From Haloarcula sp. CBA1129 (GTDB lineage Archaea; Halobacteriota; Halobacteria; Halobacteriales; Haloarculaceae), in assembly GCF_008729015.1 (NCBI RefSeq), contig NZ_RKSM01000001.1:3348001-3412000 (forward strand): a stretch of 64,000 bases of DNA, read 5' to 3'. The translations under genes and the position numbers were made by a program. The notes under the pieces were generated by a model. The model saw only the letters and a program-made list of their open reading frames with translations, made no database searches and was not told where the DNA came from. Positions 238 through 1,727 of the stretch are shown in pieces. The number at the start of each line of letters is the position of its first letter. Position 1 is the stretch's first letter.

Positions 238-286
238 CGCCCCGGTTCACAACCGTTAAAACAGACAGCCTGATACTACCTTTTGT

Positions 287-359
287 GGGCGGCTAGTTCA
301 GCGGACAGAACGCCTGGTTCCGGACCAGATGGTCGGGGGTTCAAATCCCTCGCCGCCCG
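287..359 (+). tRNA. tRNA-Arg, anticodon CCG
   Basis: A 73-base cloverleaf can be drawn. The acceptor stem GGCGGC-type 7 bp is at 287-293 and 352-358 with discriminator G359. The D stem is GUUC/GAAC. The anticodon loop UUCCGGA carries anticodon CCG, read as arginine. The T stem (GGGGG/CCCUC) closes a UUCAAAU loop. The outermost anticodon-stem pair is C-A, a mismatch. No intron and no encoded CCA are seen. A TATA-like CGTTAAAAC lies 25-34 bases upstream. The last 22 bases are repeated downstream (see the array at 360-775). Confidence 0.93.
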
Positions 360-472
360 TGCAGCGAACCCGAGTTTTACGAGCGGTGAGCGAACCGGCA
401 GCGAGGATTTGAATCAGGGAGTGTAGCGGCGCGGAACGACCGTGGTTCAAATCCCTCGCCGCCCGCTTTCTC

Positions 473-562
473 CGACGAACAGACATGAGATGCGAAAGCG
501 GAACCGAGGATTTGAATCCTGCCAGTCGCGCGCAGCGGAGCGAGCACGTCTGGCTTCGGTTC
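473..562. repeat. 90-bp direct repeat, copy 1
   Basis: This 90-base stretch matches 670-759 with four substitutions. It contains nested complementary arms, GAACCGA at 501-507 with TCGGTTC at 556-562 and GCCAG at 521-525 with CTGGC at 550-554, so it can fold into a long hairpin whose loop is rich in GCG/AGCG. The right arm runs into a copy of the tRNA 3' end. Confidence 0.9.
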
Positions 563-669
563 AAATCCCTCGCCGCCCGTTTTTCGGCGAACTAATGTGA
601 GCCGTGAAAACGGCCCGAGTATTTGCGAGGCGTTCGCGTGGTTCAAATCCCCCGCCACCCGCTATTTTA

Positions 670-759
670 CGACGAACAGACGTGAGGAGCGAAAGCGGAA
701 CCGAGGATTTGAACCCTGCCAGTCGCGCGCAGCGGAGCGAGCACGTCTGGCTTCGGTTC
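670..759. repeat. 90-bp direct repeat, copy 2
   Basis: Second copy of the element at 473-562, with four mismatches in 90 bases. The hairpin arms are kept. The tRNA-derived sequence that follows (755-775) is more decayed than in the other units. Confidence 0.9.
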
Positions 760-842
760 GAACCTTCCGAACCCGACGCCCGGCACTTTCGACCCGGGAA
801 TCGCCGCAACGTCCTTGGGGTTTCGACACAAGGTACGAACAT

Positions 843-1727
843 ATGCGTGTGCTCGTTGTGGGTGCGACCGGATTCATCGGACAGCGACTGGTTCGTTCCC
901 TGAACGACGCAGGCCACGATGTGGTGGCGTTTTCCCGGAGCGCGAGCGAAGACTCTTTTCCTGACGGAGTCGAGCCGTTTGAGGGCGACCTTGGCGAACC
1001 CGACTCTCTTGACGGCCTCTGTGACAATGTCGATGTCGCGTACTACCTCATTCACTCGCTCACGTCCGAGAACTTCGCCGAGCTGGACCGGCGCTACGCT
1101 CGCCGGTTTGCCGACTCGGCGTCGGCTGCGGGTGTCGACAGGGTCGTCTATCTCAGCGGTATCAGCGGTGACGAGGAGAATCTCTCACCCCATCTGGCGT
1201 CGCGGCGCGAAGTCGAATCGGTGCTGGCGGAGGGGTCGTTCGACCTGACGGTACTCCGGGCGGCGGTCATCATCGGCCCGGAGAGCGCGAGTTTCCGGAT
1301 CGTCGACGACCTGACCGACCGCCTACCGCTGATGCTCGTCCCCAAGTGGGTCCGAACACCGTGTCAGCCCATCGGCGTCGACGACGCGATCAGCTACCTC
1401 GTGGCGTTACTCGATGCCGATGCAACCCGCGGCGAGACCTACGATATCGGCGGGCCGTCGGTGTGGTCCTACGAGTCACTGTTGAAACTTACCGCGGCGG
1501 AAAAGGGCAAGCGGGTGTTTATTATCCCCGTGCCAGTGATGACGCCCGGCCTCTCCTCGCACTGGCTTCGCTTCACGACGGACGTGCAGTACGCTATCGC
1601 CCGGCCGCTGGCCGAGAGCATGCGGAACCCAGTCACGGTCGACCCGGCGATGAACCTGCAGGATGTCGTGCCGATCGACCAGACGCCGATTAAAGACGCC
1701 GTTCGACGGTCGTTGATGGCGTCGTAG
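843..1727 (+). CDS. Atypical SDR / NAD(P)-binding protein
   Basis: The 294-residue protein starts with the Rossmann motif GATGFIG at residues 8-14, preceded by a beta strand, as in NAD(P)-binding proteins of the NDUFA9-like or SDR_a5-like atypical SDR group. A central YLSGISGD segment and a C-terminal substrate half follow. The classical Y-x3-K pair is not evident, so dehydrogenase activity is doubtful; cofactor binding in a structural or isomerase-like role is possible. The reading frame stays open upstream, but translation there would run through the tRNA-derived repeats, so ATG 843 next to the Rossmann strand was chosen. The next gene is an unrelated-subfamily epimerase on the same strand, 53 bases on. 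Confidence 0.85.
   Translation: MRVLVVGATGFIGQRLVRSLNDAGHDVVAFSRSASEDSFPDGVEPFEGDLGEPDSLDGLCDNVDVAYYLIHSLTSENFAELDRRYARRFADSASAAGVDRVVYLSGISGDEENLSPHLASRREVESVLAEGSFDLTVLRAAVIIGPESASFRIVDDLTDRLPLMLVPKWVRTPCQPIGVDDAISYLVALLDADATRGETYDIGGPSVWSYESLLKLTAAEKGKRVFIIPVPVMTPGLSSHWLRFTTDVQYAIARPLAESMRNPVTVDPAMNLQDVVPIDQTPIKDAVRRSLMAS

Follow-up and report, generated by a model that had tools for sequence, protein, structure and literature searches.

Integrases that act at tRNA genes have been described as using three target regions, one of which extends from the T-loop to the 3' end (PMC8371274). Casposases use tRNA 3' ends as well, and casposons have terminal inverted repeats and produce target duplications of 14-15 bp that overlap only the last tRNA bases (PMC6977970). 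Integration also leaves partial tRNA copies at proviruses and islands of archaea (PMC3119063, PMC9897764). Those copies flank kilobase elements, whereas the partial tRNA copies at the locus described here, in Haloarcula sp. CBA1129, lie about 100 bp apart in tandem and belong to an arrangement found class-wide. Throughout, "the window" is the whole stretch of DNA analyzed, 64,000 nucleotides, and local coordinates refer to it. Directly 3' of tRNA-Arg(CCG), four units of ~80-115 bp lie head to tail, with the following parts.

286-360, plus strand: tRNA-Arg(CCG) gene, the anchor of the array (Rfam match 287-359)
338-359, plus strand: copied block T, the last 22 nt of tRNA-Arg(CCG), GGTTCAAATCCCTCGCCGCCCG
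360-465, plus strand: unit 1, with an exact T copy at 444-465; hairpin z -2.85
about 360-400, plus strand: stem-loop 1 of unit 1
401-413, plus strand: inverted T-arm copy (T') of unit 1, GCGAGGATTTGAA
414-443, plus strand: stem-loop 2 of unit 1, 'CAGGGAG..CGACCG' type
466-579, plus strand: unit 2, with an exact T copy at 558-579; hairpin z -3.40
466-503, plus strand: stem-loop 1 of unit 2
504-516, plus strand: T' of unit 2, CCGAGGATTTGAA
517-557, plus strand: stem-loop 2 of unit 2, 'GCCAGTCGCGCGC..ACGTCTGGC' type
580-661, plus strand: unit 3, shorter, with degenerate T' and stem-loop 2 and a T copy at 640-661
662-775, plus strand: unit 4, with T' at 701-713 and a truncated or eroded end copy of T at 755-775

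The original prediction was that the 22-base tRNA end recurs four times downstream of the tRNA, with increasing decay. Two copies are exact and the third has two mismatches to the tRNA end, but the fourth is only partial, retaining GGTTCGAACC and otherwise scattered matches. Because the core of unit 4 is 93% identical to that of unit 2 over 98 bp (665-762 versus 468-565), we interpret the fourth T copy as truncated rather than slowly decayed. The prediction identified the tail copies but overlooked the inverted T-arm, the stem-loops, and the other tRNAs with the same pattern. The folds of units 1 and 2 were significantly better than those of shuffled sequences, and those of unit 3 (z -0.45) and unit 4 (z -1.18) were not. 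As also predicted, no integrase or cargo ORF was visible near the array when translations were inspected. Reading the inverted tRNA 3' ends on the minus strand yields spurious, mutually overlapping ORFs with GGEGFEP motifs (window 298-1055), and such frames probably lead to false small-gene annotations behind haloarchaeal tRNAs.

The array behind tRNA-Arg(CCG) is one of many in this genome, in which 15 of 44 tRNA genes have at least one copy of their own 3' end, ~60-130 bp downstream and in the same architecture. Own-end copies likewise follow 16 of 41 tRNA genes in Haloarcula argentinensis (G003) and 9 of 42 in a third species (G029). Copying was specific to the local tRNA: across the three genomes, matches within 3 mismatches numbered 30 for own ends and 0 for the 4,449 foreign ends. 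Dinucleotide-shuffled downstream regions yielded only 0-0.005 own-end copies per genome, compared with 12, 14, and 6 observed, which excludes a chance origin of the copies. The frequency of tRNA-to-copy matches was about 1.0 at nt 53-73 and 0.83-0.95 at nt 52 and was 0.2-0.6 at nt 51 and nt 74, giving sharp edges on both sides. This profile defines the copied block as extending from the T-loop to the discriminator base. Downstream of tRNA-Gly(CCC), tRNA-Arg(GCG), and the second copy of tRNA-Arg(CCT) in the same genome, we observed a shorter variant in which a simple hairpin precedes a ~13-15-nt copy that comprises the T-stem and acceptor 3' strand, barely more, and lacks the T-loop.

Units across the family are about 60-110 bp long (median 91) and have a constant order: a T-rich start with stem-loop 1, whose loop is often GAACAAA..CGTGAG; T', the inverted T-arm copy (GAGGATTTGAA); the G+C-rich stem-loop 2; and the direct copy of tRNA nt 53-73. 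The T-rich start directly follows the tRNA and also follows the copies, and T and T' alternate along the array. One widespread stem-loop 2 type, represented by 19 sequences, had 95.8% of cells paired and 24 cells with a double change, compared with 7.8 after shuffling. In this type G30, A31, and A16 never vary and G15 hardly does, all within a tandem G-A step. Rfam 15 gave only tRNA matches and a sub-threshold mir-1011 match (29.8 bits against a gathering threshold of 60). No terminal inverted repeats were detected, with 5.00 of 12 end-to-end matches versus 4.85 ± 0.11 in the control.

To survey these units with a tRNA-blind signature, we used GGATTYGAA-N20..50-GGTTCRAATCC, with the reversed pattern as a control. 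Of 242 Halobacteria genomes, 222 carried the signature, representing 69 of 74 genera; the reversed control had 0 matches. Outside Halobacteria, a single genome among 242 in the phylum sample matched, as counted from the table. In all 10 matches sampled, a tRNA with an identical 3' end lay 51-100 bp upstream. Among 68 sites in named haloarchaeal contigs, 55 were ≤130 bp and 9 ≤500 bp downstream of a same-strand tRNA and the remaining 4 were at contig edges, so that all testable copies (64/64) are downstream of a tRNA on the same strand. Two Woesearchaeota contigs (L309 and L356) have the order T, hairpin, inverted T-arm, hairpin, T behind tRNA-Ser, with unrelated module sequences. Matches in Bifidobacterium (L325, L329) and other bacteria were rejected as palindromes without an upstream tRNA copy; these two and three IMG/VR matches (L222, L240, L251) are long, near-perfect palindromes with arms GGATTTGAACC.../...GGTTCAAATCC, also without an upstream tRNA copy, and are apparently unrelated to the tRNA-tail units.

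Near-identical stem-loop 2 sequences (≥85%) occurred behind different tRNAs in different genera, with 86 such pairs compared with 46 same-tRNA pairs. Where a stem-loop 2 recurs behind different tRNAs, the bases flanking the T' core differ accordingly. Complementarity of T' to the local T-stem scored 199 against 119.5 ± 16.7 by permutation (maximum 183), and a second comparison gave 230.5 against 175.9 ± 6.9. T' is thus enriched for matches to its own tRNA, yet another tRNA was often better matched, and we rejected as an absolute rule that T' always mirrors the local tRNA.

When the same tRNA was compared across Haloarcula, as the original prediction had proposed, unit number indeed varied, with tRNA-Arg(CCG) followed by 0, 1, 2, or up to 4 units in differing module combinations. 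The set of unit-bearing tRNAs also differs between sister species, and no unit follows some two thirds of tRNAs. At tRNA-Arg(CCG), the H. argentinensis sequence past the second copy is identical to the G029 sequence directly past the tRNA (60/60), and precise empty sites were also found at Leu-TAG (58/60) and Val-TAC (58/60), with similar ones at Leu-TAA, Arg-TCT, Arg-GCG, Thr-CGT, and Lys-CTT. Such sites could have arisen through insertions or through deletions between direct repeats; we infer insertion. Both the range of 0 to 4 units and the base-precise empty sites agree well with the predicted small element that restores the tRNA end. The gradient of decay held in part: among 27 multi-unit arrays, the last copy matched less well than the first in 12 and better in 1, with no difference in the other 14, so that proximal copies are better preserved, but the fourth copy behind tRNA-Arg(CCG) is better explained by truncation than by such a gradient. 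One array (L339) contains two identical units in tandem.

No partner element carrying an integrase was found. Phage records contained no instance of the array, and IMG/VR contained no type B stem-loop 2. Generic-signature matches in IMG/VR were mostly inside bacterial tRNA-Ser genes and were discarded as coincidences of pattern; only one (L176), beside tRNA-Glu at the edge of a provirus contig, had the real architecture. Plasmid records gave one partial match, inside a tRNA array of Haloarcula halophila (NZ_CP119561.1), and this plasmid core is a possible link to mobile DNA. The array (L160 358-3493; NZ_CP119561.1, 237657-242714 reversed) has at least 22 tRNA genes, several with inserts, and adjoins a TROVE (Ro60-like) gene; a B-family DNA polymerase and Orc1/Cdc6 are encoded close by. 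Its tRNA-Cys-like gene (2427-2569) contains ~70 bp with a type B stem-loop 2 core before the T-arm, an intron-like or insertion-like insert at about nt 53/54. In H. argentinensis, ~15 tandem tRNA-like genes near tRNA-Arg(TCG) (L120; G003 C27:216600-223800) are probably a viral or plasmid tRNA array.

These findings require some means of moving a core from one tRNA to another and of freshly copying nt 53-73 of the tRNA entered. Target duplication at insertion would do this automatically, as it does with CRISPR and casposon integrases at their leaders. We somewhat favor the interpretation that the array represents stacked insertions of a noncoding, nonautonomous element that duplicates tRNA nt 53-73. 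The element, with a core of stem-loop 1, T', and stem-loop 2, would enter immediately 3' of the tRNA gene, and duplication of nt 53-73 upon insertion would leave the tRNA intact and place a perfect local copy at the far end of the element. New units would enter beside the tRNA, pushing older units outward to erode, and homologous deletion between the 21-22-bp direct copies could remove units without a scar. T' may later become or stay complementary to the local T-arm by palindrome correction or by selection for the hairpin. Presumably an enzyme acting in trans would be responsible, with tyrosine recombinases of the T-loop class and integrases resembling Cas1 or casposases as candidates. The edges of the block suit a tyrosine integrase with a T-loop crossover, but such an integrase would put the acceptor strand of the donor into the new tRNA.

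Several observations speak against insertion. Phage records and IMG/VR yielded no enzyme, free form, or autonomous relative; units of 60-110 bp are very short for a circle driven by a recombinase; terminal inverted repeats are lacking; T' is frequently closer to another tRNA than to its own; and all of the precise absences could be deletions. In addition, compensatory changes and fixed orientation also suit a functional RNA or terminator. A functional trailer is the alternative that we take most seriously, although we consider it unlikely. In transcripts that read through the tRNA, the hairpin formed by T', stem-loop 2, and T and followed by a T-run would serve to terminate transcription, to divert 3'-end processing as a decoy, or to switch between states in which T' pairs with the real T-arm or with the copy. 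Hairpins can terminate transcription in Haloferax (PMC7237163), and the fixed position, the tracking of the T-arm by T', the T-rich start right behind the tRNA and the copies, and a minimum-free-energy fold that pairs the 5' acceptor strand with the downstream copy are all in keeping with such a role. Less easily reconciled with it are the many tRNAs that manage without a unit, the variation in this set between sister species, the range of unit numbers at one tRNA, and the erosion of outer copies; nor would termination or a decoy function call for the complete acceptor strand of the particular tRNA.

Under another alternative, which takes up the originally predicted stack of attachment-site scars, the units would be conventional scars or miniature remnants of tyrosine-integrase elements with a T-loop crossover, one tRNA-specific lineage per tRNA. 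The block does span a described integrase target, from the T-loop start to the discriminator (PMC8371274), and the empty sites are precise, but an element of this kind must carry the 3' end of each tRNA that it enters. Because related cores recur behind different tRNAs, a conventional attachment history with a separate element for each tRNA does not fit. The units are also not bare, having a conserved, covarying architecture class-wide and at many tRNAs that bare scars would not have in common, and no integrase gene is near the array, so that we regard this explanation as improbable. We grant marginally less to mutation in place, in which replication template switching at the T-arm palindrome would produce normal-inverted-normal copies, with slippage and unequal crossing-over then altering their number. 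It would account for the alternation of T, T', and T, for precise loss and gain between direct repeats, and for the identical tandem units of L339, but copying in place leaves unexplained both the stem-loop modules common to different tRNAs and genera and the sharp block edges at nt 53 and 73. As for ordinary decayed tRNA gene duplicates, tRNA sequence does recur downstream of tRNAs, but nt 53-73 alone are copied, with none of the 5' part, and an inverted arm and conserved modules separate the copies, so that we discarded this candidate and give it virtually no credence.

Returning to the inserted, target-copying element, a broader version is conceivable, although we hold it with less confidence than the insertion itself. 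In that version, gene-free mobile hairpins would use any tRNA as a landing pad throughout the class, copying nt 53-73 and re-matching the inner arm, and would build target-adaptive, leader-proximal arrays through a host or viral integrase in almost all Halobacteria and perhaps also in Woesearchaeota, as represented by two genomes. An unannotated structured repeat that copies the local tRNA is present at about a third of the tRNAs of this genome and at some tRNAs of nearly every haloarchaeal genome sampled. If mobile, the units would be among the smallest target-adaptive elements known and would move without genes between essential tRNA genes while breaking none, which standard attachment-site logic forbids. 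If functional, they would constitute a widespread and overlooked tRNA trailer structure. Either way, they may give rise to spurious short ORF calls (such as the GGEGFEP frames) and partial-tRNA annotations, and they offer a natural system in which to compare Cas1-like and tyrosine-recombinase chemistry at tRNA ends.

Relative to known systems, the units resemble tRNA-integrated elements (PMC8371274) in the 3'-end target, the intact tRNA, the displaced copy, and a block starting in the T-loop; the direct repeat (nt 52/53-73) runs from the T-loop to the tRNA 3' end as in T-loop attachment sites. They differ in lacking an integrase and cargo, in being <120 bp and tandem, in containing an inverted T-arm, and in having cores at many tRNAs, whereas T-loop attachment elements are expected to form one lineage per tRNA, at odds with the 86 cross-tRNA pairs. 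With casposons and CRISPR arrays they would have in common a fixed site beside a leader, whose place the tRNA body takes here, and a local target copied at each insertion, and the newest unit nearest the leader in CRISPR arrays is as we propose here. As in a CRISPR-like array, the repeats agree with the target beside them and the more distal ones are less well preserved, a likeness of operation in which insertion is the proposed step. Unlike casposons, they duplicate 21-22 bp rather than 14-15 bp and have no terminal inverted repeats, and unlike CRISPR spacers, the inserts are longer and conserved in structure. Integron attC arrays, including those of archaeal integrons (PMC9668308), are similar as tandem modules ending in an imperfect hairpin site, but the tRNA-tail units have neither coding cassettes nor a nearby integrase ORF, and their recombination arm is local tRNA sequence. 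The open literature searched contained no description of these repeats; subscription papers and preprints were outside this search and may contain one. The tRNA-copying hairpin modules seem to form a family of very small tRNA-targeting elements not described before. They resemble MITE/REP-type repeats, which are also short, noncoding, hairpin forming, multicopy, and nonautonomous, but are strictly anchored to tRNAs in one orientation, without terminal inverted repeats and with arms copied from the target. Partial provirus copies and integrase target regions in tRNAs were already known; among short nonautonomous repeats, the modules are set apart by an unusual target-copying property.
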